Of a DNA stretch of 59,432 bases, positions 1-18,535 are shown piece by piece. The stretch covers positions 1 through 59,432 of the forward strand of contig CAMDKY010000006.1 in NCBI GenBank assembly GCA_945901245.1. The letters are read 5' to 3'. This DNA is from Polynucleobacter meluiroseus (GTDB lineage Bacteria; Pseudomonadota; Gammaproteobacteria; Burkholderiales; Burkholderiaceae). Made by a program: the position numbers and the translations under genes. Every line of letters starts with the position of its first letter. The first letter of the stretch is position 1. The notes under the pieces were generated by a model. It saw nothing but the letters and a program-made list of their open reading frames with translations, did no database searches and was not told the origin of the DNA.

Positions 1-89
1 CTAGCGACATCTGTGGCTGAATGACCTTTTTCAAGAATTTGTTTAACCGCCTCTAATTTGAACTCAGTTGTGTATTTGGTTCGCTTCAT
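1..89 (-). CDS. IS3-family transposase OrfA, N-terminal fragment (runs off window)
   Basis: The reverse strand reads from an ATG at 89 as MKRTKYTTEFKLEAVKQILE and continues GHSATDVA to the window edge. This is the typical start of the helix-turn-helix OrfA protein of IS3-family elements (MKR-x-[RK]-Y-[TS]-x-EFK-x-EAV). A GGGAG ribosome binding site sits just before the ATG. Only about 29 codons are in the window, so neither completeness nor the OrfB partner can be judged. Family assignment is confident; activity is unknown. Confidence 0.8.
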   Translation of the reverse strand, partial: MKRTKYTTEFKLEAVKQILEKGHSATDVA

Positions 90-149
90 AACTACTCCCT
101 TGATTCATTGTTGACAATATTAACTGTCTACTGAATCGGGGGAATGCCA
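1..149 (-). mobile_element. End of an IS3-type insertion sequence
   Basis: The sequence upstream of the transposase start (90 to about 149) should carry the left terminal inverted repeat of the element. On the reverse strand it contains CCCCCGATTCAGTAGACAGT, which resembles the CCCC...GACAGT pattern of IS3/IS150-type ends. The exact tip and any target-site duplication cannot be fixed without the other end. Confidence 0.4.
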
Positions 150-270
150 ATTCCAATAAGTATTAACCAAAAAGTTATTCATCAGTCGTTTATAGAGTGC
201 GTTACACACCGTTACAGCGTTACAAATTATGGTCGCCCAAATGCGTGGGCTAGACATTAAGGAATAACTT

Positions 271-1475: not shown

Positions 1476-1545
1476 ACTTGATACATATTAATTACTAGGT
1501 TTACTGCAACCCACGGTGCTCTGTGGGTTTCTCTTATTAAGGAGA

Positions 1546-4287
1546 TTAGGCTACGCCAAGAATGATACCTGTAATAGCAGCACCTGCAGCTAGTGGAGTG
1601 CCAGTCAACTGAACAGCAAAGTCAGATGCAGCGATTACGTTTGTTGCACCAGTTGTTTCAACATAAACATACTCATTGCCACCATAGATAAATACAACAG
1701 TACCACGATCAGTTGTATTTGCAGTAGCAGCAGCATTAAATGCGTTTACTAACGATGACTGACTAGAATAATCTTGAACAGTTGCGACGCCACTTACAGC
1801 AATTTGGTTGCCAAGAATAATGCTATCAACATTATTAAGGTTGGTTGAGAAATCAGAAATAGTTGCCCAGGTTACAGTAGATGCATTTCCAACAACAGAT
1901 TGTGGCTTGAGGAAGAAATATGTATCGGCTCCTGTACCGCCAGTTATTTGATCTGCACCGCCACCACCAACAATAATGTCATTACCTGAGCCGCCAACAA
2001 TGATATCTGCCGCTGCTGTACCTGCTGTACCTGCTGTAGGCGTAGCAATTACACCAGTTGCAGCACCCGCGTTAACTACAGTAATTGCAGCTAAGTCGCC
2101 ATCTGTCAAGCTGGTTACAGTTACAACCCCCAAAGCTGAAGTAGCAGTGACCAATCCTTTTAGCGAAGCATTTGCATTAATTGCTGTTGTCAAAGCTGTA
2201 GCATCTGCTGTAGCATCTGCGCCGCCAGTAAAGCCGACGGTAACTCCATTAATCATTACTGAGCCAGCTGCAGCAGCAACGTGTGTCAAGGTAATTGTTT
2301 GAACTTCTTTTGTGCCTTGGTTGTCTGCATAAATAATATCAGCGCCACCATTGCCATTAATTGTGTCAATACCTGTACCGCCAGTGATCGTATCCGCACC
2401 AGTACCGCCATTAATGCTGTTAGCAACCGATGAAGAACCTCTTAATACGTTAGTACCTGCAGTTGCTGTCATTGTTACACCTGCAACAGCTGCCGCAAAG
2501 TTCAATGTATCACCACCAATAGTAGAACCAGTTACTGTTGATGCAGCGACTAATGCATCTGATGTAAAGGTTACGCCGCCGCGAGTAATCAAGCCACTCG
2601 CATTAAACGTTGTCAAAGCAGTACCTGCTGTATGAGTCAGTGCAACGCCGTTATTACCAGACAGGTTAATTGTCTGAACAGCAGCATTGGTCAATGTCAA
2701 TGTAGCTAAGTTAGCAGTTGTTGCTGTCGTGTCATTAACAACAATGTTGATTGTCTCAACGCCTGGGGTTGTTAATGTTCCAAAGCCACGAACGCCGCCA
2801 GACAAGTTGCCATTCATGCTGAATGTCAATGTGTCGCTTCCTCCATTGATTGCATTGGTTGTAACAGCCGTTTGGTTGGTTGCGTTATATGTCATGGCAA
2901 TTGTTGTGCCAGATGCAACGCCACTCAATACTTGAGTAGTTCCAGCCATCTCTAAATTCACTCTATTAAAAGTACCAAAGCTTGATAGAGAAATTGTGGA
3001 GTTACCGGCAACGCCAGCATTTAAAGTTTCAAAGCCAGTTACAGCTGCTTTAAATGCTGCAGCAGTTGCTGCTGTACCAGTAATCGTTGCTGCATCAGCG
3101 TTGGCTAAAACGAGAACGTCAGCTGTGCCTGTGCCGCCATTAATAGAGCCGCCAGTACCTAAAGCTGTTACTGAAACAGTTGCTTGGTTAGTACCACCAC
3201 CTAAGTTTATTGCTTTTGTTGTTGCACCAACAGAAATAAAATCGTTACCAGCGCCACCAGTGAAGGCTGCGGCAGCATTTAAAGTGAAATTATTATTTGT
3301 TGTGCCAACTAATCCATTTGTTGCTGTAGCCAAAACGGCTGTTGAGCCTGTTGTGTTAATGCTAGTAATGGTTGCAAAAGCAGCATTTGAAAGGTCAACT
3401 GTTACACCACCAGCACCAGAAACAACCACACTTGTCAATGCTACAGAAGCAGTGTCAACAGTTAAGGCATTTGACTTTGTACCGCCAATGTTTAAGGTTG
3501 TAGCAACTGCACCAGAAACTGATGTTGTTGCAACAGCTGTTGTGTTAACGGTAATTGTTGTGGCTTTAGCGACTGTTACCAAGCCAACAGTTTGAGCGCC
3601 AGTAACATTCAGCGTAGCGGATGTTGCTGTTGCATCTGTAATGGCTGCAACACCAGCAGTACCAGTTGCATTAATTGTCAGGGCACGTGTGCCAGCTGAC
3701 GCATTGATTGTTGTTGCTGTTGCGTCTGCGCCAACTGTATCGCTAATATTAAGTGTAGTTATGGCATTGCCTTCAATGGTAATAACTTCTGCTCCGCCAA
3801 CGCCGTTACCTGCAGATCCACCAACTGTTACTGTGTTGAGTGTGCTGCCCCTTGCTGTGCCAGTGCCAGTATCAGTGACTGTAATTCCAAGAAACTTTGT
3901 AGCACCGGTACTAACAACAGAAATTGTTTTTGCGCTATTTAAGGTAACGCTTGCTGCAGCAGCAGTTTGTGCTAGTCCAGACTCAAGGACTGTAAAGTTT
4001 TGAACACCAGTACCAAATGTGGTGTCTGTCACTGTGACGCCAATACTTGTTGCGGCAGCAGCGGCAGCACGGTTAAGTGCAACTGTACCCAAACCGGTTA
4101 ACGTAGCGCTACCAGGCAATGATGCGGCGCCGAATGCGGCTGCTGTTGTGTCAGTAATGTTCAGTCTTGCATTTCCGTTACCGGTAATTGTGTCAAAAGG
4201 CGTCAAAGTAGCGCCAGTTCCCAAAATACCGTTAACAACACCGCCTGTACCTGGGGTGAATGTGTCTACGCCGGTCGTGAGTGACAT
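1546..4287 (-). CDS. Large surface-layer-like protein with RTX-type repeats (913 aa)
   Basis: The protein is dominated by Ala, Thr, Gly, Val and Asn, has no Cys, and is built of repeated beta-strand-like segments, as in S-layer and large adhesin proteins secreted by type I systems. Two blocks of glycine/aspartate nonapeptide repeats (GGTGADTITGG-like near residue 650, GGSGNDIIVGGGGAD near 780) match calcium-binding hemolysin-type repeats. There is no Sec signal peptide, so an uncleaved C-terminal type I secretion signal is likely. The N terminus (MSLTTGVDT) matches the start of the second giant protein. No strong Shine-Dalgarno was seen. No secretion ABC transporter is in the window. Paired direct repeats upstream suggest regulated transcription. 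Confidence 0.8.
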   Translation of the reverse strand: MSLTTGVDTFTPGTGGVVNGILGTGATLTPFDTITGNGNARLNITDTTAAAFGAASLPGSATLTGLGTVALNRAAAAAATSIGVTVTDTTFGTGVQNFTVLESGLAQTAAAASVTLNSAKTISVVSTGATKFLGITVTDTGTGTARGSTLNTVTVGGSAGNGVGGAEVITIEGNAITTLNISDTVGADATATTINASAGTRALTINATGTAGVAAITDATATSATLNVTGAQTVGLVTVAKATTITVNTTAVATTSVSGAVATTLNIGGTKSNALTVDTASVALTSVVVSGAGGVTVDLSNAAFATITSINTTGSTAVLATATNGLVGTTNNNFTLNAAAAFTGGAGNDFISVGATTKAINLGGGTNQATVSVTALGTGGSINGGTGTADVLVLANADAATITGTAATAAAFKAAVTGFETLNAGVAGNSTISLSSFGTFNRVNLEMAGTTQVLSGVASGTTIAMTYNATNQTAVTTNAINGGSDTLTFSMNGNLSGGVRGFGTLTTPGVETINIVVNDTTATTANLATLTLTNAAVQTINLSGNNGVALTHTAGTALTTFNASGLITRGGVTFTSDALVAASTVTGSTIGGDTLNFAAAVAGVTMTATAGTNVLRGSSSVANSINGGTGADTITGGTGIDTINGNGGADIIYADNQGTKEVQTITLTHVAAAAGSVMINGVTVGFTGGADATADATALTTAINANASLKGLVTATSALGVVTVTSLTDGDLAAITVVNAGAATGVIATPTAGTAGTAAADIIVGGSGNDIIVGGGGADQITGGTGADTYFFLKPQSVVGNASTVTWATISDFSTNLNNVDSIILGNQIAVSGVATVQDYSSQSSLVNAFNAAATANTTDRGTVVFIYGGNEYVYVETTGATNVIAASDFAVQLTGTPLAAGAAITGIILGVA

Positions 4288-4354
4288 AACTTAGCATTTT
4301 CTAAGTTACTGAATTCACGGTGAAATTGTCATGAATTATTAAACTTTTGCTCAT

Positions 4355-4480
4355 TGCCCATGAGCTGCCCATATTCTGGCGGCGATCTAATGCTGGTAGT
4401 AGGTTATTTTGTGCAAACAATCCCCGGTCATTAACCCTGGTGCGCAGACTTCAATATTGAAATTGCCCACAAGTTGCCCA
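4355..4480 (-). promoter_or_regulatory. Two pairs of 7+4 direct repeats upstream of giant gene 1
   Basis: TGCCCAT occurs at 4355 and 4366, and TTGCCCA at 4463 and 4474. Both pairs have exactly 11-bp spacing and the pairs lie about 108 bp apart. On the transcribed strand the half-site reads ATGGGCA or similar. The near pair ends about 13 bases before a TAATAAT sequence that could be a -10 box, the position expected for an activator replacing a -35. The 7+4 geometry is that of PhoB/OmpR-type response-regulator sites. Function is inferred. Confidence 0.45.
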
Positions 4481-4500
4481 TGAGGCATAGCTTGTCTATA

Positions 4501-4806
4501 TTAAGCCGCAGCCCGTTGTTTAGTAACCTTGAGGGGTTTGAAATGAATTTCAATTGCAGAGTTTGTTGCCACAGCAAATTTTTGCAAAGTGCGCATGGAG
4601 GGTAATGTTTTTCCACTCTCTAGCCTGGCTACTGCGGACTGGGAGGTATCCATCAGTTCAGCAATATCCTCTTGTGAAAGTCCACTTTGAATACGGGCTT
4701 CAATTAGCTTACGAGCCAACTCAAATTCAGCCTGCGATTCTTCATAGGCTGCTTTAAAGCCCTTTTCCTTCATCCAGCGATTTTTTAAAGTTGCAATCTT
4801 TGTCAT
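4501..4806 (-). CDS. higA: HigA-like XRE antitoxin (101 aa)
   Basis: A Cro/C1-type helix-turn-helix occupies about residues 42-90 (SGLSQEDIAELMDTSQSAVA, then RLESGK and PSMRTLQKFA), following a helical N-terminal segment. The ATG overlaps the toxin stop codon (ATGA), so the gene is translationally coupled to the upstream toxin. This is the toxin-first order typical of HigBA-type type II modules. The antitoxin would neutralise the toxin and repress its own promoter. Its stop lies only about 20 bp before the repeats upstream of giant gene 1, and no terminator is visible between them. Confidence 0.85.
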   Translation of the reverse strand: MTKIATLKNRWMKEKGFKAAYEESQAEFELARKLIEARIQSGLSQEDIAELMDTSQSAVARLESGKTLPSMRTLQKFAVATNSAIEIHFKPLKVTKQRAAA

Positions 4807-5135
4807 AGTAGCCCCGCCTCTTTTGCTCTTTGTAACGCAGTTTGTATGGCTGATGCTGGTGTTTTCTCTGTCTTCTTTATAAAAACATGCACAACCACAA
4901 CCCGCTTTCCAGTCGATACTATATAAATACCTCTACCTATTCCGTCTCGACCGCTAACTCGGATTTCCCACAGTTTTTTCCCCAGACTGCGAACGTGTGG
5001 CAACCCAATCTTAGGCAAGCCAAACTCTTCGATTAGGTCTGTAACTCTAATAAAGCGACCTCGCATATCCTGAGGTAGAGCCTCCAGCTCAAAATCGACA
5101 TCTTTATTTAGAGTCTCTACTATCCAAACTGTCAT
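4803..5135 (-). CDS. higB: HigB/RelE-superfamily toxin, Gp49-like (110 aa)
   Basis: The sequence matches the phage-derived Gp49-like branch of RelE/ParE toxins: LWEIRVSGRDGIGRGIYIV, then VVVVHVFIKKTEKTP and a C-terminal helix. Such toxins are usually ribosome-dependent mRNA endonucleases. It is first in a two-gene operon with the XRE antitoxin, overlapping it by four bases. Length is normal for the family. It may stabilise the island. Confidence 0.85.
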   Translation of the reverse strand: MTVWIVETLNKDVDFELEALPQDMRGRFIRVTDLIEEFGLPKIGLPHVRSLGKKLWEIRVSGRDGIGRGIYIVSTGKRVVVVHVFIKKTEKTPASAIQTALQRAKEAGLL

Positions 5136-5174
5136 ATGAAATTATATCAAAAAAGAGATAAATAAAACTTACTT

Positions 5175-5435: not shown

Positions 5436-5563
5436 AGGTCTGCCTTAAGTAAAAAAATTGATAACAAGACTGTAAATATCATTTATAATAGCGTCAGTAG
5501 TGTTTAAAATGATTATTAAATATTAAAAAATATACTTTTAGCCTGATTCAATGACATTATACC
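5436..5563. promoter_or_regulatory. AT-rich divergent promoter region of regulator and integrase
   Basis: This 128-bp stretch between two divergent genes is strongly AT-rich. It contains TATAAT at 5484-5489 on the plus strand, with TTGATA upstream at longer than ideal spacing. No clear ribosome binding site precedes the integrase ATG, so its mRNA may be poorly translated or leaderless. Confidence 0.4.
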
Positions 5564-6769
5564 ATGCCTAAGCTCCTGTTTTCAAAGACAATTATTGATG
5601 CAGCTAAATGCCCTTTAGGAATGGCGAAGTTCAACCTACAAGATAGTGGCTGTAAAGGATTAATACTGGAGGTTCGCCCCACTGATTTAAAAGTCTTTGG
5701 CTTGAAATACGTTGATGCCCGAGGTAAGCAGCGCCAAATAAAGTTAGCTGATGCAAGGGATGTGACATTAGCTCAAGCGCGCCAACTGGCAGATCAATTC
5801 CGTAGCCAAATAGCTATGGGAGAAGATCCATTAGCCAAGCGCGCCGACCTCAAGAAAGTCCCCAAGTTATTAACGTTTTCATTTGAATCGTATATACCGT
5901 TTGTGCAAGGTTACAAGCGCTCATGGAAGTGCGATCTAGGATTATTGAATAACCACGTTCTACCCATTTTTGGCAGTAAGTATTTGGATGAGATATCCAA
6001 GCAGGACATTATTAAGTTCATAGCAGTGCATCGAACAACGCATGCTCCTGGCAGCGTCAACCGCATCATCATTTTGCTCCGTTACATGTTCAATCTAGCA
6101 ATTAGATGGGAGATTGCTGGGCTGACAAAAAATCCAACTTCAGGCATTCCCTTGCTGGAAGAGCTAAATAAGAAAGAACGTTTCCTTTCTAAAGAAGAAA
6201 CAGAGCGTCTCTATGGAGTACTAAAGGGTAGTGATAATGCCCTCCTGCAATACATCATCCCCATGCTCATATTGACTGGCGCAAGAAAGATGGAGGTGTT
6301 AACCGCTCGCTGGGAAGACCTTGATATTCAAAAGCGTCAGTGGCGTATTCCGATTACTAAAGCAGGTCGGCCGCGGTATGTGCCACTCTCCAGCGGTGTA
6401 ATCCATCTACTTTCTAATGTGCCGCACAAAGTTGGCAATCCATGGGTCTTTCCTAATCCCAAAACGGGTAAGCCTTATGTCTCCATCTTTAATTCATGGA
6501 ATGCTGCTCGGATCGCAGCAGGACTGGCAGATGTCCGCTGTCACGATTTACGTCATTCTTTCGCGTCCTTTTTGGTTAATGCAGGTCGCTCCTTATATGA
6601 GGTCCAGCGCATCCTCGGACACACCCAAATCAAGACCACCCAGCGCTATGCGCACCTCTCTCAAGACACCTTACTCGATGCTGTGAATGCGGCCTCGGAT
6701 ATGGCAGGTTCGATGGTCTATGCTGTTGCGCCAGTAAAACCGGATCAGCTCGGGTACCGCAATGTATAA
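5564..6769 (+). CDS. int: Tyrosine recombinase / integrase (401 aa)
   Basis: The N terminus is the arm-binding domain common in genomic-island integrases (about residues 1-95). A SAM-like core-binding domain (about 105-195) and a C-terminal catalytic domain follow. All catalytic residues are visible: R241 (TGARKMEV), K266 (ITKAGRPRYVPL), H327 and R330 (HDLRHSFAS), H353 (LGHTQIKTTQ) and nucleophile Y362 (RYAHLS). It looks intact. It should integrate and excise the surrounding element. No flanking att repeat could be identified, and there is no tRNA gene nearby. It is divergent from an XRE regulator. Confidence 0.95.
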   Translation: MPKLLFSKTIIDAAKCPLGMAKFNLQDSGCKGLILEVRPTDLKVFGLKYVDARGKQRQIKLADARDVTLAQARQLADQFRSQIAMGEDPLAKRADLKKVPKLLTFSFESYIPFVQGYKRSWKCDLGLLNNHVLPIFGSKYLDEISKQDIIKFIAVHRTTHAPGSVNRIIILLRYMFNLAIRWEIAGLTKNPTSGIPLLEELNKKERFLSKEETERLYGVLKGSDNALLQYIIPMLILTGARKMEVLTARWEDLDIQKRQWRIPITKAGRPRYVPLSSGVIHLLSNVPHKVGNPWVFPNPKTGKPYVSIFNSWNAARIAAGLADVRCHDLRHSFASFLVNAGRSLYEVQRILGHTQIKTTQRYAHLSQDTLLDAVNAASDMAGSMVYAVAPVKPDQLGYRNV

Positions 6770-6807
6770 GCAGCAAATTTGCCTTACTAACCTACGGAAA
6801 CTAAAAA

Positions 6808-7149
6808 ATGCCTACTCAAAAATCCACCACCCTAAATCAACCCGAACTCTGTTCTAAATTTGAATCATGCAGCGCTACCCTATGCCCAATGGACTTGCAC
6901 CGGACTAAGCGTCACATACACCGAGATGATCCCTGCTGTTTCTTCTTGCTTGAAGTGGCTAAGCCTGGCGGCAAAGAATTAATTTCGATGGGTTATAGCG
7001 AGGAAATGTATCAAATTGCTAGTACGGTATTCCTAGAGGTTGTGGATATGGCATACCCCATCAAAAGAAGCCTTCTAAGGGCGGCAAATACGCCTAGTCG
7101 TATACATTCAGTTGGAAAAGAAGCGGCGCAAGTGGAGGTAGGTATATGA
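6808..7149 (+). CDS. Small Cys-motif protein, copy 2 (113 aa)
   Basis: This is a diverged paralogue of the product at 519-818. Shared features are C-x6-CSA-x2-CP near the N terminus, a following hydrophobic LLE segment, and RAANT-P-SR near the C terminus. The family was not recognised. The gene follows the integrase by 38 bp and overlaps the ParB-domain gene by four bases (ATGA), so the three are likely co-transcribed. The four N-terminal Cys residues may bind a metal; this is inference. Confidence 0.65.
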   Translation: MPTQKSTTLNQPELCSKFESCSATLCPMDLHRTKRHIHRDDPCCFFLLEVAKPGGKELISMGYSEEMYQIASTVFLEVVDMAYPIKRSLLRAANTPSRIHSVGKEAAQVEVGI

Positions 7150-7895
7150 GCTATGAAACTAAAAAGCTGCCGCTCGGTGACATTACTTTGGATTCTGATA
7201 CGCAGCCGCGTGTAGGGCCAAACAAGCATGTTCTTGAATATTTTCAGGATTTAATCTTGTTGAATGGTGTGCGCTTTCCGCCGGTAGTCCTTTTCTATGA
7301 TGGCAGTAAATACTACCTTGCTGATGGCTGGCATCGGTACGAAGCACATCGAATGGCATTTGAGGAAGAAATTACCTGTGACATACATCAAGGTACAAAA
7401 AGAGATGCCATTTTGTACTCCGTTGGTGCAAATGGCAAGCATGGTCTGAATATGACAAATGCTGATAAGCACCGAGCAGTCACAAAGTTATTAAAAGATC
7501 CAGAGTGGTCTAAATGGAGTGATAAAAAGATTGCTAGCACATGCCATGTAACCGCGACATTTGTTGCCAAGCTCAAAAAGTCACTATCAACGGTGGATAG
7601 TGAGAAGCCGCAGGAACGTACCTATACCAATAAACATGGCAGTGTCAGCACCATGAAAATAGACCGAATTGGAAAACGGAGTTCAACGTCATTGCCAGCT
7701 CAAATTCAAACAAGCGATACCGCAGCACAATTGAGTAACCGTGATATCAACACGACTGAAGGCGTTTACCAGCGGATAAAAGAGTTGGAGCTTGAGCTTG
7801 AATTAAAGGATCAGATAATTAGTGGCCTAGAAGCGCAAGTTACAAAATTAAAGGAGCAAATGGGGGTAGGGGATGAAGAATCGCTACCTTTCTGA
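7146..7895 (+). CDS. ParB/Srx N-terminal domain protein (249 aa)
   Basis: The first ~90 residues match the ParB/sulfiredoxin fold: LPLGDITLDSDTQPR, then FPPVVLFYDGSKYYLADGWH with the characteristic G-x-HR element in DGWHRYEA. A helical DNA-binding-like middle follows (NADKHRAVTKLL, IASTCHVTATFVAKL). The last ~40 residues (IKELELELELKDQIISGLEA) are predicted coiled coil. In elements such proteins act as CTP-dependent clamps, partition proteins or regulators. There is no adjacent ParA, so a regulatory or replication-linked role is as likely as partition. It overlaps the preceding gene by four bases. Confidence 0.8.
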   Translation: MSYETKKLPLGDITLDSDTQPRVGPNKHVLEYFQDLILLNGVRFPPVVLFYDGSKYYLADGWHRYEAHRMAFEEEITCDIHQGTKRDAILYSVGANGKHGLNMTNADKHRAVTKLLKDPEWSKWSDKKIASTCHVTATFVAKLKKSLSTVDSEKPQERTYTNKHGSVSTMKIDRIGKRSSTSLPAQIQTSDTAAQLSNRDINTTEGVYQRIKELELELELKDQIISGLEAQVTKLKEQMGVGDEESLPF

Positions 7896-8025
7896 CCCTA
7901 CCCACTCCCACCCACCAATTATGGCCAAGTGAGGACAGTGACCCTATGCATACTATTTTGCAGTTCCGAGGATCTATCTTTGGCATTACGGTAAAAAATT
8001 ACATCATTAATCAACAACTTAAATT

Positions 8026-8051
8026 TCTATCTTTAAACGTTTAAAGATAGA
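8026..8051. repeat. Perfect 26-bp palindrome
   Basis: The half-site TCTATCTTTAAAC (8026-8038) is followed immediately by its exact reverse complement (8039-8051), with no spacer. It lies in the 226-bp gap between the ParB-domain gene and the 56-residue ORF. Such a site suits a dimeric DNA-binding protein or an element replication or partition locus. A weaker TAGGGG/CCCCTA dyad lies just downstream at 8067-8084. Confidence 0.75.
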
Positions 8052-8121
8052 TTTGATAGGGAAATATAGGGGAAAGGCCCCCTAATGTTTCTAAACAAAA
8101 AGGTAGGGGGTTATATTTTTT

Positions 8122-8292
8122 ATGAAAACAGCAGCATCAAAAACCGCAACACATGCTACTCGGTCATCCATTCGGCTCTACTTAGATGAATACACCGACA
8201 CCCATTACCGCCTGATCATCTTGCAGCAACGACGGATCATCACAAAACTTGAACGGAGAATTCAATGCTTACAGCGCAAACTATCCTTATAA
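8122..8292 (+). CDS. Small basic protein, 56 aa
   Basis: A short ORF opens with MKTAASKTATHATRSSIRLY and ends in a basic helical segment (QQRRIITKLERRIQ). A G-rich AGGTAGGGGG ribosome-binding-like sequence lies upstream. Its 3' end overlaps the start of the next gene by 28 bp, so translation may be coupled. No family was recognised. The basic, predicted helical nature suggests nucleic-acid binding, which is inference. Confidence 0.45.
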   Translation: MKTAASKTATHATRSSIRLYLDEYTDTHYRLIILQQRRIITKLERRIQCLQRKLSL

Positions 8293-8600
8293 CCGCTGGT
8301 GGAAGAATCACCTGCCGACGCTGCAATGCCATGAGTAAAAGGACTCGTATCCAATGCGGCGCTCCTGCAATGCAAGGAAGGCAAAAGTGTAGGAACCATG
8401 GCGGCTATTCCACAGGCCCAATTACGCTTGAAGGAGTGGCGCGCTGCGCAAAGGCTAAGACTATTCATGGTCATGAGACTAAAGAAAAGCGCGAAGCCCA
8501 CCGTCTTGGAATGATCAGGATTCGGTATTACGCTGCGCTTTTAGGCGTGAGCTTTCGATCATCGCGCATATGCCGTGGAAGCTCAAATAAAGCCACTTGA
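8265..8600 (+). CDS. HGGxSTG-type zinc-binding-like protein (111 aa)
   Basis: The core matches the small HGGxSTG family found in mobile elements: CRRC, then CGAPAMQGRQKCRNHGGYST followed by GP and EGVARCAKAKTIHG. The Cys/His spacing suggests a zinc knuckle. I kept the start at 8265 (GGAG seven bases upstream) because it retains the first Cys pair; an alternative ATG at 8331 would lose it. The C-terminal ~25 residues are basic and not conserved in my recollection of the family. Function in such elements is not established. Confidence 0.65.
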   Translation: MLTAQTILITAGGRITCRRCNAMSKRTRIQCGAPAMQGRQKCRNHGGYSTGPITLEGVARCAKAKTIHGHETKEKREAHRLGMIRIRYYAALLGVSFRSSRICRGSSNKAT

Positions 8601-8660
8601 ATTAACTTTCGTAGCACCTCATGAACCAAGCAATCAATTTGATGTAATAGGAGAAATAAA

Positions 8661-9122
8661 ATGAGCGTAGGAACGCAAGAAACACCCTCAAAAATTAGTG
8701 GGAAGTTTGAAGAGCTAATTCGGCCACTTATTGCTGAAGGCGAATACCAAGCTACAGTTAAAAAATGGCAGATATTGGAGATTATGTTTGGCCAACCTAA
8801 GCTGGTGATTAATTGCGACGTATTCGTTGATGATGTCATTTATGATCTTGCCTATTTTTGTAACATCAAACTTACTCCCGAGAGAGCTATCCAGCCCCCT
8901 GGACGCAGAAGTAATCTCTATAAGTTAATTCATAAGTTACTTTCCACTGAAAGTACATCCCGCGATCTTGATGATCTCATTGGCTTGCACTGTACCGCGG
9001 TTGTAGAAACAAGCATGCTCGATGATAAGAAAGGGCTTAAACCTGTTAGTGAGCAGTATTCTGTTATACGAAAACTATTACCCGATATTGATGCTAAGCC
9101 AGACCCTTGGGATGTTCAATAG
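8661..9122 (+). CDS. Conserved mobile-element hypothetical protein (153 aa)
   Basis: An AGGAGA ribosome binding site precedes the ATG. The layout resembles proteins often found in phage-like islands: an N-terminal G-E-Y-x-A-x-V strand, W-x-ILEIMFGQPKLVI, a region with RRSNLYKLIHKLL, and a C-terminal QYSVIRKLLP. I recognise this pattern but cannot name a function; an OB-fold or single-strand-binding role is only a guess. The last gene of the cassette, it ends exactly where a heptanucleotide array begins. Confidence 0.6.
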   Translation: MSVGTQETPSKISGKFEELIRPLIAEGEYQATVKKWQILEIMFGQPKLVINCDVFVDDVIYDLAYFCNIKLTPERAIQPPGRRSNLYKLIHKLLSTESTSRDLDDLIGLHCTAVVETSMLDDKKGLKPVSEQYSVIRKLLPDIDAKPDPWDVQ

Positions 9123-9290
9123 TACCTAGTACCCAACACCCAGTTTGCCCGCTGCATTACTTGTAAGCTATAACCTGTAACTAATAACCTTGTACCAATG
9201 ACCTATGAGCTAGTACCTGTGACCAAGTACCTAAGACCTATTACCCATGGCTAAAACCTAGTAGCTAGCATCCGCTACCTAACACCCACT
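9121..9290. repeat. Degenerate heptanucleotide array (AGTACCT-like)
   Basis: ACC recurs at 9124, 9131, 9138, 9173, 9187, 9194, 9201, 9215, 9222, 9229, 9236 and 9243, all on the same 7-bp register. After a one-base slip it appears at 9256, 9277 and 9284. The consensus heptad is roughly A-[GT]-T-A-C-C-[TCA]. The array starts at the stop codon of the 153-aa gene. Function is unknown; slipped-strand origin is likely. Confidence 0.75.
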
Positions 9291-9300
9291 TTGAGAGAAC

Positions 9301-9385
9301 AAAGAAAAACACCGCCTTTATGGGGCGGTGTTTAGCTTGATACTTATTAATTACTAGGTACTGCAACCTACGTTGATCTGTAAGT
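9301..9385 (-). terminator. Hairpin-terminator module copy B, downstream of the 68-aa gene
   Basis: A perfect 10-bp stem (AAACACCGCC at 9307-9316 with GGCGGTGTTT at 9324-9333) has a T-rich tail on the minus strand. A second, imperfect hairpin lies nearer the gene (AACCTAC/GTAAGTT, wobble-paired in RNA). The TTAATTACTAGG-ACTGCAACC core is shared with copies A and C. Confidence 0.8.
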
Positions 9386-9408
9386 TTTTCTTTTAAGGGA
9401 AGGCAGAA

Positions 9409-9615
9409 TCAACGCTTCTCCTTGCCACCTTCTTTTGGTAGTGCGGCATTTAAAGCATTTGCGTAGCCAATCCGAGCCGTTTGATATACCGCTACTTCGG
9501 CATTGAGCTGAGCGAGCTTTTGATCTACAAACTGAAGACTTGCAAACTGTCCTTTTGCATCCTCAGAGAGGCTATCCAATGCGTATTCAACTTCATCGAT
9601 GGTTACTGTGGTCAT
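9409..9615 (-). CDS. Small DUF6447-like protein (68 aa)
   Basis: The sequence begins MTTVTIDEVEYALDSLSEDA and continues as an amphipathic helix ending PKEGGKEKR. It resembles the small DUF6447 family as I remember it (V-x-IDG-x-EY-x-LDSLS). It has an AAAGGA ribosome binding site. It sits between two copies of the same hairpin-terminator module, downstream of giant gene 2 on the same strand. A role as an accessory or chaperone of the secreted surface protein is a guess from position only. Confidence 0.65.
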   Translation of the reverse strand: MTTVTIDEVEYALDSLSEDAKGQFASLQFVDQKLAQLNAEVAVYQTARIGYANALNAALPKEGGKEKR

Positions 9616-9644
9616 TCTGTTTCCTTTGATTTAAATTCGATTTC

Positions 9645-9740
9645 TACAAAACAAAACCCCAACTTTATGGGTCGGGGTTTTATCTATGCCTCTTAATTAA
9701 CTTCTAGGTACTGCAACCCACGGTGATCTGTGGGTTTCTC
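9645..9740 (-). terminator. Hairpin-terminator module copy C, downstream of giant gene 2
   Basis: An 8-bp stem (AAAACCCC 9653-9660 with GGGGTTTT 9674-9681) is followed on the minus strand by a TTTTG run. Nearer the stop codon is a 7-bp hairpin AACCCAC/GTGGGTT (9715-9736), identical in stem to copy A. Confidence 0.8.
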
Positions 9741-9752
9741 TTATTAAGGAGA

Positions 9753-12700
9753 TTAGGCAATGATATCGGCTGCAACAACGCCGCCAGCACCAAGGCCTAC
9801 CAATCGAATTACTGCCGTTGCAACTGCGCCAGCAGCAGTATCTACAAACAGCAATCCACCATCTGCAGCTGTGTGTGCGTAGTAATAAACTTGAGTACCC
9901 GCTGCAAATACAAGGTTAGCGGCAGTTTCAGCATCTGCAAAGCTCGCAGCTGCAGCTCCCGCAGCTGCAAAATTACCAGCTGCACCTGCTGTTCCAGTCT
10001 TGATCTTATCTACAGTTGTTGCAAAACCAGTAATATTATCAGCGGTGGCAAGTGTAATTCCAGTTTGAGCAGCTAAGGTTGCAATGGATCCATAGGCATA
10101 GGTATCTGTGCCTGTACCGCCTGACATAGTATCTGCGCCGGCAGCACCAGTAATGGTATTGGTACCGTTACCTGCAGCAATAACGTCCGCAGCTGCTCCA
10201 GTAACAATGACATCATTACCGGCACCAAGAGTAATGGTTTTGACCCCTCCTCCGTTTGCAGTAATAGTGATACCACCAGTATTTGTACCACCAGTTACGG
10301 TAGTTGCACCATTCAATCCGGCAGTAATTGTTCCTGATACACCAACTCCTAACGTAATGCCAGTTGCGGCAGCAAAGGAGCTAGCAGTTAATACCACCGT
10401 ACTAGCATTTGCGGTAGCAATCGATACAGTGGTAGCGCTATTAGCAACTAAGTTGGTCTCTGTAATTGAGCCAGTTGCACCAGTAGCACTAATATTGACA
10501 GTTGTAGCATCAGTTGTATTAGCTGTATCAACAATCGAACCGGTACCAGAATTGGTAATGGTCAATGTATTAGCGCCCGCTGACATTGTTGCTGCTGTAA
10601 TAATCATTGCGCTTGTACCGGAATTGGTAATTGATTGAGCACCAACACCAGAAGCTAATGCTGTCACGGTAATATTACCCGATGAGCTATTGGTAAACGT
10701 TAGTGCTGCACCTTGAATTCGCGTAAATGTACCAGCAGTAGTTCCACCTAAAGTAATGGTATCAGCACCACCTGTAGTATCAAAAGTTACGTTACCACCA
10801 GTTGCACTATTTAATGTCGCGGAATTAACCCCAGAACCTGCAATTGTAATCGCCTGAGTACCTGTACCGCTATCGGTAATCGTGTGATTAAAGTTATCAG
10901 ATAAGGTATAGCTAGAACCGCCAGCCAATGTGGTCACAATCGTAGGCGCTGTTGCTGCAGTAGAGCCGAGTGTGACATAGCCAGTGGAAGCTGTTACAGA
11001 TCCTGTATATCCAGTTAGCTTAATGACCGTAGTATTGGTTCCCGAGTTACCACCAGCGCCCTTCTCTTGAGCAATGTAGGTATCACCGCCGTATGTACCA
11101 TAAGCAACCCTACCTGCATTGCCACTATTTGCAGCATTTAAGAGTGCGATAGCGGCAACCGAGGAAGTAGCCGTAGTCAAGCTAGTGGCTGTTAATGCAG
11201 CATTGCTAGAGGCTAGATCATTGCTAAATGAAACGATGTCTCCTGCCTGGGCATTATTAATTGTGTAGTTTGCTGTCGAAGCAAATCCAGCACCAGCAGC
11301 GCCCACTTCAAAGAGGTTAGGAGTTGTGGAGCTTCGTGTCCCAGTAGTAATGGTATAGGTACTTGCACCACCAGTGCCGCCTAAAGCAATAAAGTTGGAA
11401 CCCGTACCCACGGTCACAGCAACAGTTCCAGTATTAACGCTCTGCTGGCTAACTAGCTGATTAAATCCATTACCCAGGGAAACCGTTAGCGACTTAGCTG
11501 CTGTACCGGCACCGGATAAATTCAACTGGTGATTTGAATTGTTTGATGCGCCAGTAATGGTCATGTTATTAGCATTGTTATAGCTATTGCTAATAATGGC
11601 TGCTCCAGCTGAACCCAATGTCAACGTTGTTAAAGAGTTGTCAGTGGTCGTCAATGCAGTATTACCACTTAAAGTAATGCTGCTATAAGCCAATGAATCA
11701 GCTCTGATGACGTTTGCTGCAGTACTTGTACTGTTTACCGCCAACGCACCAGTATTACTGTCACTTAAGTTCAATGTGATTTTGCCTGAGCCAGTTAAAT
11801 TCAAGTTGGCTAGGTTGTTGTTAATCATGTTAACGATCAAACCAGCAGCATTGGTACCCGTATTACCTAAGGTCATGGTCGCTGCTGTATCGGTAAATGA
11901 TGTAATTCCGGAGTAACCTGCTATACCACCCCGTAAGTTGAGACCACCGGCGCCAGCTAATGTTAACGTGCTGTACGCACCATCAGCTAAGAATACGGTA
12001 TCGCCGGCGTAGTTAAAACCAACGTTGTTAGAGGTAAAGTTCAATGTGCCAACGGTGTTACCGTTATTGTCAGCTACCGTAAGCAATTTATTGATTGCAC
12101 CAATCGTTTGCGCAGCATTTGTAAAGACACCTGTTACACGATCGGCAAAAGAGTTACCGCCTAAAGTAATTGCTACCACATCGGATGCGCCGGCTGTATC
12201 AGCATAATTTAGCTTAATTTCACCAGTGTAATTTCTAGCGGCGAATGTATTAGGTGCTGAAAATGATCCGCCAGTAAAGTTTACAGCCGCATTTTGATTA
12301 ATCTTATTAAAGGTAATATCATTTGCAGTATTAGTGGTGAAATCAATTCTATTGATCGATGAACCAAATACTGAGGCATTAATGACATCGGTGGCCGCAG
12401 CACCTGTTGTTCCCAAAATCTCAAAGCCTTTTACATTGACACCAGTAACTGCTGCAGTGAAGTTAGATCCGCCTGCACTCAAAATAATCGCATCGTTGCC
12501 ACCTGTGCCACCAGTAATCGCCTTAGTAGCGTTAGAGGCGATTGTAATTCGGTTAGTGCCACTTGTACCCGATGCATCAAATGTGACTACAGTCGGGTTG
12601 ATCGTAGTAGTAACTCCAGCAGCGCCCGTAACGTTGATGGCGGTTATCCCAGTTGCGCCAGCAGCGCCTAGTGTCAACACAGAACTACCTGATATATTCA

Positions 12701-13907
12701 GGGTTTTTAACGCCGTACTGGTTATATTAGCAAGCGCAGAAGCTGCTGTTCCTGTTACAACGTTAATGGTTGTAAATTGGTTTGAAGCATCCACATAGCT
12801 TGTAACACCGCCACCACCAGCAGTACTTGCTGAAGTTAAGCCATTGACATTCATTGTTAAGGTTGTGTTGGTTGCAGCATTCGAACCGCCTCCATAGGTA
12901 GTAACCGTGCTACCGCTACCTGTACCCGACAATGTCAAAGTATTAAGGGCTGCCGAGCTGATGTTTGTAGCTCCAAAATTGCTCAAGGTAACGGCAGTAA
13001 TCGTACCCGTCAAATTTCCAGCAGTAGCTGTGGTCGCGTTTGCCGCATTTAAATCTGCAATATTAACTGTGCCTGATGTAACACCAATCGCACCATTAAC
13101 GCCATTGACTGGAGTTACAGCGGCAACTGCCGTTGCAGGGGCAACACCAGGAGCTGCTGTTCTGCCAGTTACTGCAACGACGCCAGTAACAGCTGTAACA
13201 GCAGTAACTGCAGTAGCAGCAGCAGCTTGAGTAACAGAAACAGTGGTGGTTGCAGCAGTACCTGTGACAGAAACGTTACCCATATTATTAGTATCGTTTG
13301 CTGTACCAGCAGCTTGAACAGTCGATCCAATTGCTTCAGTAATGCTGATGTTAGTTCCGCCTTTAACTGAAATAGCACCGATTTGGGTAGTCGTATTGGT
13401 GTTATTAGCTAAAGCGGTAGCACTAATGGTTACTGCGCCGGTCGGGACAACGCTTGCACCAACAGTAATATCTGCGGTAGCAGCAGTAGCCTTATTGGTG
13501 CCAGTTTCTGTGATATTGATGGTTGTGCCGCCATTGACTGAGATTGCATTTGCAGCAGCAGAAGTACTGGTTACTGTGATCGTGCCAGCTGGGCTTGCAG
13601 TTGTGCCTGCTGCACCACCAATGGTTACAGCACCTGCGGAAGTTGATGCAGATACATTATTACCACCCGCAATCGTTACGCTACCAGCAGCGTTTTGAGC
13701 GCTGATATTTGTAGTTGCTGCAGTTGTGATGTTTGTAGCACCGTTGGAGTTGACATTTAATTGTGTAAGGCCACTATAACCTTGAAAGCCACCAGTCGAG
13801 GTTGTGTTGGCCGTTACAGCTTCGCCTGAGTTAAAGGTTACAGTTTTAACGTTTGAAACTGTAACACCGGCTAATGAAGTAGGTGTCCATGTACCGCCTG
13901 TGGTCAA
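9753..13907 (-). CDS. Giant surface-layer-like protein with RTX-type repeats (at least 1384 aa)
   Basis: The composition matches the 913-aa protein: Ala, Thr, Gly, Asn and Val, no Cys and very few charged residues, in long runs of beta-strand-like repeats. A glycine/aspartate calcium-binding block lies near residues 1240-1290 (LGAGNDVIVTG, AAGADTMSGGTGTDTY). The C terminus (GLGAGGVVAADIIA) should be a type I secretion signal. The coordinate given uses the TTG at 13907, but the same frame stays open to 14057 and encodes SPLTTGSDT, homologous to the start of the other giant protein, without any ATG, GTG or TTG before the in-frame TGA. So the true start is unresolved. An Ala/Val/Thr-rich tract (VTAVTAVTG) near residue 235 marks an internal repeat. 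Confidence 0.75.
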   Translation of the reverse strand: MTTGGTWTPTSLAGVTVSNVKTVTFNSGEAVTANTTSTGGFQGYSGLTQLNVNSNGATNITTAATTNISAQNAAGSVTIAGGNNVSASTSAGAVTIGGAAGTTASPAGTITVTSTSAAANAISVNGGTTINITETGTNKATAATADITVGASVVPTGAVTISATALANNTNTTTQIGAISVKGGTNISITEAIGSTVQAAGTANDTNNMGNVSVTGTAATTTVSVTQAAAATAVTAVTAVTGVVAVTGRTAAPGVAPATAVAAVTPVNGVNGAIGVTSGTVNIADLNAANATTATAGNLTGTITAVTLSNFGATNISSAALNTLTLSGTGSGSTVTTYGGGSNAATNTTLTMNVNGLTSASTAGGGGVTSYVDASNQFTTINVVTGTAASALANITSTALKTLNISGSSVLTLGAAGATGITAINVTGAAGVTTTINPTVVTFDASGTSGTNRITIASNATKAITGGTGGNDAIILSAGGSNFTAAVTGVNVKGFEILGTTGAAATDVINASVFGSSINRIDFTTNTANDITFNKINQNAAVNFTGGSFSAPNTFAARNYTGEIKLNYADTAGASDVVAITLGGNSFADRVTGVFTNAAQTIGAINKLLTVADNNGNTVGTLNFTSNNVGFNYAGDTVFLADGAYSTLTLAGAGGLNLRGGIAGYSGITSFTDTAATMTLGNTGTNAAGLIVNMINNNLANLNLTGSGKITLNLSDSNTGALAVNSTSTAANVIRADSLAYSSITLSGNTALTTTDNSLTTLTLGSAGAAIISNSYNNANNMTITGASNNSNHQLNLSGAGTAAKSLTVSLGNGFNQLVSQQSVNTGTVAVTVGTGSNFIALGGTGGASTYTITTGTRSSTTPNLFEVGAAGAGFASTANYTINNAQAGDIVSFSNDLASSNAALTATSLTTATSSVAAIALLNAANSGNAGRVAYGTYGGDTYIAQEKGAGGNSGTNTTVIKLTGYTGSVTASTGYVTLGSTAATAPTIVTTLAGGSSYTLSDNFNHTITDSGTGTQAITIAGSGVNSATLNSATGGNVTFDTTGGADTITLGGTTAGTFTRIQGAALTFTNSSSGNITVTALASGVGAQSITNSGTSAMIITAATMSAGANTLTITNSGTGSIVDTANTTDATTVNISATGATGSITETNLVANSATTVSIATANASTVVLTASSFAAATGITLGVGVSGTITAGLNGATTVTGGTNTGGITITANGGGVKTITLGAGNDVIVTGAAADVIAAGNGTNTITGAAGADTMSGGTGTDTYAYGSIATLAAQTGITLATADNITGFATTVDKIKTGTAGAAGNFAAAGAAAASFADAETAANLVFAAGTQVYYYAHTAADGGLLFVDTAAGAVATAVIRLVGLGAGGVVAADIIA

Positions 13908-14057
13908 GTCACTAACTATTAATGTGTTATTGGTGCCGCCTGGGGTGATTATGTCGCCAGCGATAAATGTAGCGCCAGTGCCATTGGCAGAGCCTGAAAT
14001 GGAGAGATTGGTACCAGTAACTGTATCGCTACCAGTAGTGAGTGGACTAGTATCGGT
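13908..14057 (-). other. In-frame N-terminal extension of giant gene 2 lacking a start codon
   Basis: These 50 codons read SPLTTGSDTVTGTNLSISGS and onward into the annotated protein. They begin right after an in-frame TGA (14058-14060). An ATG-ATG pair at 14065-14070 is in another frame and hits TAG after five codons; deleting one base between it and the SPLTTG segment would join them. Either a sequencing indel, a real frameshift mutation or an unusual start explains this. Confidence 0.7.
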
Positions 14058-14118
14058 TCATCATTAACTCATTAAAATCAATGACTTGCGTACTTGTTTC
14101 GGGTAAATAAATTTACTA

Positions 14119-14223
14119 TGTACTTCCCGTGTACTTAATTTCCAATTGGCTTGTCCAACCTGTATATGCAGGCATAGCCTTTTATTCAGCTCAACTCTTT
14201 TTACGTGTACTTCTCGTGTACTT
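14119..14223 (-). promoter_or_regulatory. Two pairs of TGTACTT direct repeats upstream of giant gene 2
   Basis: TGTACTT occurs at 14119, 14130, 14206 and 14217. Each pair is spaced exactly 11 bp (7+4), and the pairs are 87 bp apart. On the transcribed strand each half-site is AAGTACA. The geometry is the same as upstream of giant gene 1 although the heptamer differs (ATGGGCA there); both fit WWGKRCA. Response-regulator binding is inferred. Confidence 0.45.
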
Positions 14224-14405
14224 GATTTTGCCATTTAGATTGAAATTTAAAGGTCCTGCAAAAAAATAAAAAAAATTAGGAACTTGCGACTCACCCTTCT
14301 GGGATAAGGGTGTCAGCTTGCTTTCTTTGGGGCCCCATCAGAGTCATGGGTAGATGGGACCCAATTTGGTTGGCGCCTTCCTTAACAAGTACCCCCCCTC
14401 TACGC

Positions 14406-14445
14406 TGTCCAAATCCTGTCCATTTCTTGTCCATTTTCTGTCCAA
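14406..14445 (-). repeat. Four tandem TGTCCA direct repeats, 11-bp period
   Basis: TGTCCA[AT] starts at 14406, 14417, 14428 and 14439, an exact 11-bp period over four copies. On the minus strand the half-site is [AT]TGGACA. This is one helical turn per unit, as in multi-site OmpR/PhoB-family operators. It lies about 350 bp upstream of the giant gene and may be a distal activator array. Confidence 0.55.
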
Positions 14446-14525
14446 CTGAGTATCAAAATATGCTTAAATATCGACTGGAACAGATGTAAATTGATAAACA
14501 CTAAACAGGAATTGGTAACTCTCTT

Positions 14526-14660
14526 TTTATCGCCAACAAGCCGCGAAGCCACGCCAGTCATGCCTTCCACGACAACGAACTCTTTTACATGGATAAGACC
14601 ATGATGGTCTTCGGTGATGCGAAGAAGGTCATTGAAGACATGGTTAAGGCAGTTGAATAA
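14526..14660 (+). pseudogene. pntB: 3' remnant of NAD(P) transhydrogenase beta subunit gene
   Basis: The frame ending at the TAA at 14658 encodes NELFYMDKTMMVFGDAKKVI then EDMVKAVE, the conserved C terminus of PntB. The preceding residues (ANKPRSHASHAFHD) are only loosely like PntB and no upstream coding continues, so the gene is truncated. A strong terminator follows. It marks the right boundary of the island: either the element inserted near the 3' end of pntB, or a deletion removed the rest. Confidence 0.8.
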
Positions 14661-14797: not shown

Positions 14798-16465
<1,668 letters not shown>

Positions 16466-17048: not shown

Positions 17049-17915
17049 ATGAGTCCCAAATCTCGGCTGTATTCGCTTGTCCATGCATGGAAAAATAAGC
17101 CTTTTCATGAGCTTAGGGATGTTCAGGGGACTCATACACTGAACGCAGTTCACGAAACCCAAGATCCAGGAAGCAATGCCAACTGGTCTAAGCGGCAAAC
17201 CGTTAGTTACGAACCTATTTTCAATGCAGCGGGTAATTCCATGCCAGCCGCCCTCTTTAGGCCACTCTTAAGCGCAAGCGACTCCCAGGTATTGCGCTTA
17301 ACTATGGAGGGGTTGGATGCCGCAAGTTATTGGCATTGCTGCAACCGGCCTATTCAAATCGTGCTCCCTTTGTCGCCCGATATTGTGGCAAACGCCCAGC
17401 GGATTGATGCCTTATGCGATCTGATTCTCAATTCCAGACTACCCGTTGGCTTAGTTCATGTGGGTATTACTGCAATACCGCCGGAGGCGATTAGAGCCAA
17501 TTGCAAAGAAGGTTTATTGCGCTTGCGCCGCATCGGAGTACTGCTCCACTTAATGAATGCCAGTCCGCAATCGATCCAACCCCAGTGGCTAGAAGAAATC
17601 AAACTCGATGGCATCCATTTTTCTATTCAGGAATTGCGGAGTGATGATATTGCCGAAGCAAGCCAACAAGCCAAGTTACTCGATGCTCTGGCCATGGCAC
17701 GCACCCTGGGAGCTGCGCTTTATGCCACTGGCATCACCTTAATTAAAGACCTCGAAAACGCACGGCTTTTACCCGTCGATTTTTGTTACGGCGGACTCAT
17801 GATGTCGCCCGTCAGCAGACACCAAATTCTTCATATCAGCGACAGTCGAATTGCGAAGGCTATTTTTGCAGTGAAACCCCACGGAAGTCCAAACCAGAAC
17901 GGAGATAAGCAATGA
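17049..17915 (+). CDS. Degenerate EAL-domain protein (288 aa)
   Basis: The fold of an EAL (cyclic-di-GMP phosphodiesterase) domain is visible from about residue 53: YEPIFNAAGNSMPAALFRPL, then IRANCKEGLLRLRRIGVLLH, IKLDGIHF and LGAALYATGI. The catalytic EAL, the DDFGTG loop and other metal ligands are absent, so it is almost surely not an enzyme. It may bind ligand or protein as a regulator. A GGAG site lies before the ATG. It overlaps the response-regulator gene by four bases, recalling Bordetella BvgR, an EAL-type protein next to bvgAS. Confidence 0.7.
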   Translation: MSPKSRLYSLVHAWKNKPFHELRDVQGTHTLNAVHETQDPGSNANWSKRQTVSYEPIFNAAGNSMPAALFRPLLSASDSQVLRLTMEGLDAASYWHCCNRPIQIVLPLSPDIVANAQRIDALCDLILNSRLPVGLVHVGITAIPPEAIRANCKEGLLRLRRIGVLLHLMNASPQSIQPQWLEEIKLDGIHFSIQELRSDDIAEASQQAKLLDALAMARTLGAALYATGITLIKDLENARLLPVDFCYGGLMMSPVSRHQILHISDSRIAKAIFAVKPHGSPNQNGDKQ

Positions 17916-18535
17916 AGAAAAGTGTCATGTTGGTAGACGATCATCCCGCCATGCTCATGGCCCTAAAAAGCATGCTGCAGGATCAGTTGTTGTTTGAGGT
18001 AGTTGGTCAATGCCGCAATGGAGAAGAATGCTTGCAAAGTATGAAGCAAATGAATCCTGATATCGTGATTCTCGATCTCGATATGCCTAAAACGGACGGG
18101 TTTGATGTAATCCGCCGCATTAGCTTGACCTACCCCGATATCCGCTTACTGGTTCTATCCAGCCTAGATGAGCATGTGTATGGCGGACGTGTACGCTCTT
18201 TAGGTGCCCATGGCTTCATTAACAAAACGGCTGGGTCAGATGTTATTTTGGCAGCCTGCGTGGCGATCTCCCAGGGCTATGCGTGCTTTTCCCACACTCG
18301 CAATGGGCATAGCTCGCTCAGCGACCAAGAAAAACTCGCCCTCATCTCCGATCGCGAATTACAGGTGATGAAGTATTTGGGCAAGGGCAATAGCAATCAA
18401 CACATATCCGACTTATTGCACATCAGCAATAAAACCGTAGCGACATACAAAACGCGCATATTTGAGAAGCTGGGTATCAATAACATTGCTGACCTCATTA
18501 TGTTTTGTCGTAATAACCACATCATTGAGGGATGA
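17912..18535 (+). CDS. NarL/LuxR-family response regulator (207 aa)
   Basis: The receiver domain (residues 1-120) has the acidic pair DD at 9-10, phosphoacceptor D55 (VILDLDMPKTDG) and a conserved Lys near 106. The C-terminal LuxR-type helix-turn-helix (about 140-203) contains LISDRELQVMKYLGKGNSNQ and KTVATYKTRIFEKLGI. It should be phosphorylated by the hybrid kinase encoded next, as BvgA/EvgA are by BvgS/EvgS. It overlaps both neighbours by four bases. Confidence 0.92.
   Translation: MKKSVMLVDDHPAMLMALKSMLQDQLLFEVVGQCRNGEECLQSMKQMNPDIVILDLDMPKTDGFDVIRRISLTYPDIRLLVLSSLDEHVYGGRVRSLGAHGFINKTAGSDVILAACVAISQGYACFSHTRNGHSSLSDQEKLALISDRELQVMKYLGKGNSNQHISDLLHISNKTVATYKTRIFEKLGINNIADLIMFCRNNHIIEG

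Follow-up and report, generated by a model that had tools for sequence, protein, structure and literature searches.

Twin direct repeats beside a start-less S-layer-like gene of Polynucleobacter meluiroseus are likely arm-type sites of an integrase on a coat-gene cassette

Why do two giant surface-coat genes of Polynucleobacter meluiroseus lie next to direct repeats with the same layout but a different word? In the stretch of DNA analysed here (contig CAMDKY010000006.1, positions 1 to 59,432, hereafter the window), an earlier note made from the letters alone had pointed to pairs of the heptamer TGTACTT near coat gene 2, separated by four bases exactly as are the pairs near coat gene 1, and had proposed that one response regulator or two paralogous ones recognise them and thereby allow alternative expression of two surface coats. 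Taking the whole explanation given below together, we consider it likely that the TGTACTT pairs serve a tyrosine integrase as arm-type sites; this integrase would be carried on a small integrative element with a coat gene as its cassette. The features of the locus are collected in Table 1.

Table 1. Features of the window and of related loci; coordinates are window positions unless a contig or locus is named
Feature	Position	Strand	Basis or remark
IS end	1..149		same sequence as the 149-base end of contig C8
Coat gene 1, lattice module beginning MSLTTGVDT	1546..4287	-	ATG at diverged core
Putative arm-type pair of element 1, TGCCCAT-GAGC-TGCCCAT	4355..4372	+	11-bp repeat
Putative second arm-type pair of element 1, TGCCCAC-AAGT-TGCCCAT	4464..4481	+	11-bp repeat
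Toxin-antitoxin-like pair between arms and integrase	4501..5135	-	Pfam HTH_3 and Gp49
Tyrosine integrase intW, Arm-DNA-bind_3 domain	5564..6769	+	Pfam; relatives beside start-less coat genes
Element cargo genes, four ORFs	6808..9122	+	none with a Pfam family (E 0.001)
Coat gene 2, start-less S-layer-like lattice module	9753..14042	-	1429 codons open from core; RTX repeat near end
Candidate recombination core at 5' end of coat gene 2, CACTCACTACTGGTAGCGATAC, coding LTTGSDT	14023..14044	-	sequence pattern
Putative arm-type pair 1, TGTACTT-CCCG-TGTACTT	14119..14136	+	exact repeat; first arm to L codon of core, 77 bp
Putative arm-type pair 2, TGTACTT-CTCG-TGTACTT	14206..14223	+	exact repeat; 87 bp from pair 1
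(C/T)TGTCCA, four copies at 11-bp steps	14405..14444	+	probable arm-type sites of pntB-site integrase intA (contig C8)
Displaced 3' end of pntB, right attachment site of island	14526..14657	+	77% to PntB residues 412-455
groEL, chromosomal flank	14801..16450	-	convergent with pntB in relatives
Resident S-layer gene of own genome	C2:80633-83998		DUF4214 anchor
31A-FELB integrases, 98%/46% pair	L221:4301-5509 and L221:13079-14287

The repeats are exactly as the earlier note described them. All four copies of TGTACTT, at 14119, 14130, 14206 and 14217, are exact in the window sequence, and the two 23-bp copies that hold the pairs are 91% identical and lie 87 bp apart. TGTACTTN4TGTACTT occurs twice in the window and in none of 100 window shuffles, and in the 1.97-Mb draft genome this 18-bp pattern was found only twice, both at 14119-14223, with no match in the reversed control. 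The set at gene 1 (TGCCCAT at 4355 and 4366; TGCCCAC and TGCCCAT at 4464 and 4475; 109 bp between the two pairs) is also real, and one geometry with differing heptamers is indeed common to the sites of the two giant surface-coat genes. When one mismatch was allowed at spacing 11 within 300 bp, the sole twin sets of the window were TGTACTT, TGCCCAT and (C/T)TGTCCA, the last being a third 11-bp set absent from the earlier note. In contrast, AGGCATAGC, which had been put forward as a further element common to both regions, turned out not to be significant: two copies were found in the window against 0.82 expected, 19 of 100 shuffles reach two, and the word lies outside the repeat pairs at gene 1 but between the pairs at gene 2. 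We hence rejected it as a common element or att core.

The expectation that the repeats are maintained across the genus was borne out for their layout but not for the region itself. The 14119-14223 region was matched in 6 of 185 other genomes, across 25-103 query bases, with none of these matches covering a TGTACTT pair, and a scan of 151 genomes of the genus found TGTACTTN4TGTACTT in the own genome and in none of the 150 others. The layout was then counted at 60 integrase loci of the genus carrying the arm-binding domain PF13356, drawn from at least 150 matches and mostly on large contigs; the set excludes the integrase of the window, intB and the integrases of G071:C3 (see below), and expected counts were drawn from the remainder of the same 60 loci. 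In the 500 bp that precede the domain there were 10, 14 and 38 exact 7-mer pairs at spacings of 10, 11 and 12 bp against 1.45, 1.57 and 4.34 expected; spacings 13 (9 against 1.76) and 20 (10 against 2.26) were also raised, and spacings 14 and 15 gave none. At least one exact 7-mer pair at 10-12 bp was present in 44 of the 60 loci. These are partly non-independent and were grouped through the words that they have in common, which gave 17 groups sharing no word (the largest with 10, 8, 6 and 6 loci); the word therefore varies with the kind of integrase while the spacing stays constant. Judged by this association, the 7+4 geometry is a mark of integrase attachment regions in the genus.

The pairs had been placed upstream of giant gene 2, and they do lie 5' of the coat frame, but this frame has no start codon. 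It opens at an S-layer motif, LTTGSDT (general form LTTGxDT); an in-frame stop precedes this motif by 18 nt, ATG, GTG and TTG are all absent ahead of it, and a TTG at 13907 falls inside the frame. At 14058-14072, in frame with coat gene 2, there is an ATG AGT followed by three stops, the ATG being 30 nt before the motif; this may be what is left of a former start, or chance. In the PDB, coat gene 2 has partial matches to RsaA and to RTX proteases, that to RsaA reaching only E=1.8e-7 over 212 residues, and with both an anchor domain and a start of its own absent, coat gene 2 does not qualify as a complete RsaA-like gene. A search of the own genome for paralogs of coat gene 2 returned gene 2 itself only, and a first contig scan with gene 2 as the query found no relative. 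Between the cargo genes and coat gene 2, at 9160-9290, irregular repeats of about 10-11 bp with ACCT or TACC were noticed by eye.

Relatives of the integrase of the window led us to a contig of Polynucleobacter sp. 31A-FELB (G071:C3), in which a unit of coat gene (minus strand), arm region and integrase (plus strand) is repeated four times, with cargo between the units. The coat genes of this array begin with one DNA word, GTCCACTCACTACTGGTATCGATAC or near it, whereas the preceding DNA differs, and the motif DNA of coat gene 2 is also present in its start-less coat genes. The candidate core of the window has 0 mismatches to the pattern built from coat gene 2 and the array genes; a search with this pattern gave 39 places and the reversed control 16, which makes many of the weaker matches chance. 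Six start-less coat genes were identified by computation, each with a stop 12-81 nt before the motif, no start codon between, and 599-1429 open codons past the motif; a seventh, G071 a, was read by eye. HTH or toxin-antitoxin-like frames recur between arm sites and integrase, both in the window (an HTH protein at 4501-4806 and a Gp49-like one at 4803-5135) and at L221:12040-12516; such frames are present in some arm regions of the array, and the one examined there gave HTH_3.

Both a Phage_integrase and an arm-binding domain were found in intW, intB and int1. Two integrases of 31A-FELB, int1 and int2, are 98% identical outside the arm domain but 46% identical within it, a difference for which natural exchange of the arm domain and rapid divergence can both be considered. 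The arm domain of intB (C8:50255-51457), the second integrase on contig C8 of the own genome, is nearest to that of int3 (46%; others 24-27%), while the remainder of intB is nearest to intW; the int3 region in turn holds TGTACAT-CCTG-TGTACGT, close to the TGTACTT-4-TGTACTT of the window. The TGTACTT arms are therefore probably the sites of intB, a pairing that spans contigs and is based on the likeness of the intB arm domain to that of one further integrase, and intW is the likely owner of the TGCCCAT arms. The earlier idea of paralogous proteins was thus right in that DNA-binding paralogues tied to alternative coats best explain the differing heptamers; that they are response regulators has no support, since the fitting binders are integrases with divergent arm domains. 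An EAL-like protein, a LuxR-type response regulator and a hybrid histidine kinase are encoded at 17049-20988 of the window, just beyond the island described next, and these are perhaps the regulators that the earlier note meant.

Where the cassettes sit can be read from the flanks. Positions 14526-14657 code on the plus strand for the last 44 residues of PntB, and this displaced end is 89% identical in DNA over 103 bp to the native pntB on C8, where the order is pntB, TTGTCCA-4-CTGTCCA, integrase intA and intB. The pntB and groEL genes are convergent neighbours in relatives wherever the retrieved stretch spans both; in some the gap is close, and in others an intA-type integrase follows pntB and a displaced pntB end precedes groEL. 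Because of the displaced pntB end and the intA-type islands at pntB in relatives, window 1-14526 is, as judged from this comparison, the right-hand portion of an island inserted at the 3' end of pntB; an integrase after pntB, a displaced pntB end and groEL beyond it were all found, with the halves on two contigs. The window opens with the same 149 bases with which C8 ends, making the order C8-IS-C6 (C6 being the contig of the window) likely; this IS end on both contigs is the evidence for their adjacency, and a target duplication at the IS of C8 and C6 was sought by eye with no match. In the circular island intB would come close to the TGTACTT arms, with intA and the pntB site between them. 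The (C/T)TGTCCA array probably serves intA for attachment, and a similar stretch lies near pntB or the displaced pntB end in other genomes. The pntB 3' end (G000:C8:47771-50206) furthermore appears as an integration hot spot of the genus, displaced ends being seen several kb downstream in a number of genomes.

The same core was also found within an intact gene. The resident S-layer gene of the own genome adjoins genes for ABC, HlyD and outer-membrane efflux components of the kind found in type I secretion, and the core sits inside its frame after about 155 residues. Being matched to 5n97 in the PDB at E=4.1e-84, the resident has an RsaA-like lattice, and its residue 152 aligns with residue 4 of the 778-residue RsaA chain of 5n97; a PDB search with the first 300 residues of the resident gave no match. 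RsaA residues 1-249 are the LPS-binding part and residues 250-1026 the lattice (PMC6978808). Judged by these alignments, the core corresponds to the point where anchor and lattice meet in intact S-layer genes; its hexamer is CTCACA in the resident and CTCACT in coat gene 2. The resident is orthologous to genes of two relatives (84% and 58%), and no lattice swap is visible at it among the three orthologous residents. Of 186 genomes, 4 have an anchored resident at an identity of at least 43% across nearly the whole anchor, and 7 have one at any level; the three genomes with intW relatives above 40% identity are all among those four. In G000:C35 and G064:C24, matches to the DUF4214-type anchor were seen clustered in neighbouring genes.

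To look further than the genus, named genomes were scanned with the integrase alignment; of the 74 loci obtained, 64 were used (L261-L317 and L323-L329; L318-L322 and L330-L334 were omitted); L261, L266 and L308 repeat loci of G071 and G091, and the count of twin arms enters those genomes once. A coat-like giant frame starts within 2 kb upstream of the integrase in 22 of the 50 loci having at least 2.5 kb upstream. The other 28 have no adjacent upstream giant gene, and 19 of these are at 44% integrase identity or lower; in five loci (L286, L287, L326, L327 and L328) the giant coat-like frame is downstream of the integrase instead. The motif lies 0-34 codons past a stop in 14 loci (13 by the search pattern, L294 by eye), with no ATG, GTG or TTG ahead of it in eight, three of which are the repeated G071/G091 loci, and with a TTG, GTG or ATG between stop and motif in the remaining six.

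Twin arms were less evident in these loci at the beginning. An early count over the 64 named loci gave 13 exact 7-mer pairs at spacing 11 against 7.2 expected, with no clear peak, and twins upstream and downstream were found in 4 and 0 loci at spacing 11, 4 and 1 at spacing 9, and 3 and 1 at spacing 12. The method was refined after this weak first result, by relaxing the heptamers and bounding the regions by the core. With relaxed heptamers, twins of at least 26/28 were found in 8 of 72 at spacing 11 and in 0-2 at other spacings; in core-to-integrase regions, twin pairs of at least 24/28 at spacing 11 were found in 12 of 26, against 0-4 at eight other spacings, and 14 of the 26 have no clear twin arms. 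Tandem direct repeats in the attachment region are thus present in the window and, with relatives included, in 12 of 26 core-bounded regions. The distance from the first arm to the L codon is 73-78 bp in eight of the 12 (window genes 1 and 2, G071 a, L267, L282, L285 and two near-identical L287 copies), 67 bp in G071 d and G091, which are both AT-rich and may be chance, and 167 bp in G071 c, while L270 has no LTTG codon to measure from; in the weaker regions L263, L286 and G071 b the first arm is at 75-79 bp.

Intact ARRANGEMENTS, with a long N-terminal part before the motif, was found in 7 of the 64 loci (L263, L269, L284, L286, L287, L294 and L327), and anchored and start-less genes can be close neighbours. 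In Pseudomonas UMAB-08 the order is anchored gene, int1, start-less lattice, int2, start-less lattice; the two integrases are 98% identical and the X regions are identical at 230 of 248 positions, while each lattice has about one third identity to the anchored one and the two have no mutual match at 1e-3. Polaromonas OV174 has an anchored gene, an integrase and a start-less lattice in this order. Six loci have both gene forms, and the core hexamers of the displaced and the anchored gene agree in five of them and disagree in L294; the hexamer was chosen after the data were seen, and three of the five agreeing att pairs say little, as they are the same as the family consensus. The agreeing non-consensus hexamers are CTTACA in L263 and CTGACT in L284. 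Over 12 positions the agreement is 12/12 in L284 and 7/12 in L263, the latter to be compared with 8/12 between L263 and an unrelated locus. The two genes of L327 are on opposite strands and so are not two ends of one simple insertion. For L263 (Noviherbaspirillum) a right junction was sought as a long exact repeat, and the candidate was discarded, being just a 21-bp match inside coding sequence. L263 and L287 have anchors that are 47% identical and lattices without a match at 1e-25. Also, a start-less lattice of UMAB-08 matches the anchored lattice of Polaromonas L286 at 59% identity, beginning with the first residue of the latter, and the L286 anchor has no match at 1e-3 to the anchor of the one anchored UMAB-08 gene seen. 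Anchors and lattices thus appear to vary independently.

From this arrangement we infer arm binding, recombination and coat switching as follows. The element family would recombine at a short core, around CTCACT and coding L-T, that lies at the joint of the cell-anchoring and lattice parts of RsaA-like S-layer/RTX proteins, and each element would end in a start-less lattice gene abutting this core. Since the lattice gene abuts the core, integration into an intact S-layer gene would put the new lattice in frame with the promoter, start and anchor of the resident, and would leave the old lattice start-less and silenced behind the arms and the integrase; repeated integration would give arrays. 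Each integrase would have its own arm-binding domain and hence its own heptamer, with the geometry conserved as 7+4+7, twice, and with the first arm some 75 bp away from the core. In the window, coat genes 1 and 2 would be two such cassettes in an island put at the pntB 3' end by intA. They sit in this island and not at an S-layer gene, coat gene 1 has an ATG, and no expression site for the cassettes of the window was found.

Other readings of the pairs have been weighed against the arm-type sites. Direct 7+4 repeats of one helical turn resemble pho boxes, and the pairs precede the coat frames by roughly 70-200 bp, as would suit operators of OmpR/PhoB-type or other regulators switching both coat genes. 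Gene 2 has no start codon, however, the geometry tracks integrases, and the pattern recurs neither elsewhere in the own genome nor in 150 other genomes of the genus, unlike a regulon; neither regulon-wide sites nor conservation upstream of orthologous genes, by which such operators are recognised, was seen. The pairs are hence probably not regulator boxes, and the operator reading as a whole, to which the response regulators acting on promoters in the earlier note belong, seems to us very unlikely. Chance recurrence in AT-rich intergenic DNA has only a negligible probability: short words generally recur by chance, but these pairs are in 0 of 100 shuffles and unique in the genome.

Within the mobile-element framework, it is unlikely, but less so than operators, that the excisionase (recombination directionality factor) of the element, and not the arm domain of the integrase, binds the pairs. 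Such factors bind direct repeats one helical turn apart (PMC7498355), and TorI and IntS arm sites occur together in the attL of KplE1 (PMC2951348); in the sole case compared, however, heptamer similarity follows the integrase arm domain. A stronger competitor, though still doubtful, is that the elements parasitise a conserved S-layer sequence and leave decayed coat genes behind, with no functional exchange of coats. The coat frames are start-less, no swap is seen among the three orthologous residents, and dusA islands likewise replace a gene end (PMC4482086). Against such decay, the frames remain open over 599-1429 codons, the frame is kept across the core in anchored lattices near integrases, and one lattice family is found both anchored and start-less.

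If the arm-site reading is right, the elements would resemble several known systems in part. With P4-type and lambda-type attachment regions they share a tyrosine integrase with an N-terminal PF13356 arm-binding domain, tandem direct arm repeats and a separate core, but here the target is the joint of an S-layer gene, and arm domains diverge between two integrases that are otherwise 98% identical. In the shufflon (Rci/pilV), a tyrosine recombinase exchanges the C-terminal segment of a surface protein whose N-terminal part stays constant, as is proposed here, but the shufflon inverts a local set, whereas the integrative elements proposed here are separate, bring one integrase each, and would insert and accrete. 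Integron arrays likewise accumulate promoter-less genes at one site, where the gene nearest the expression signals would be expressed; here, by contrast, there is one integrase per element, the target is inside a coding frame and arm sites are present. The sap system of Campylobacter fetus also has alternative S-layers behind a common 5' sequence, with silent copies, but to our knowledge its switching is not by integrative elements bearing their own integrases. The dusA-associated islands are similar in that a tyrosine integrase inserts at one place of a protein gene and replaces one end (PMC4482086), but there the replacement end is short, whereas here it is a whole alternative C-terminal module, with arrays of old modules. 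Among the open-access papers listed we found no description of integrases targeting S-layer genes, which does not prove that none exists.

S-layers form the outermost coat of the cell and are a likely contact surface for phages and predators, and the diversification of coat genes in free-living bacteria is as yet poorly explained. That there is a widespread class of elements for integron-like coat exchange, in which a start-less lattice comes in frame behind the resident anchor, the old coat is archived in silent form, and a private arm domain and heptamer keep each element independent of the other elements of the array, is a proposition for which we see the chances as evenly balanced. Insertion of such an element at the joint of anchor and coat could change the outer coat of a cell, and an integrase family aimed at this joint would provide a concrete and testable route for coat exchange within and between genera. 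The joints would also be a set of natural fusion points of domains, and the near-identical integrases with different arm domains a natural series from which to learn how arm domains read DNA.
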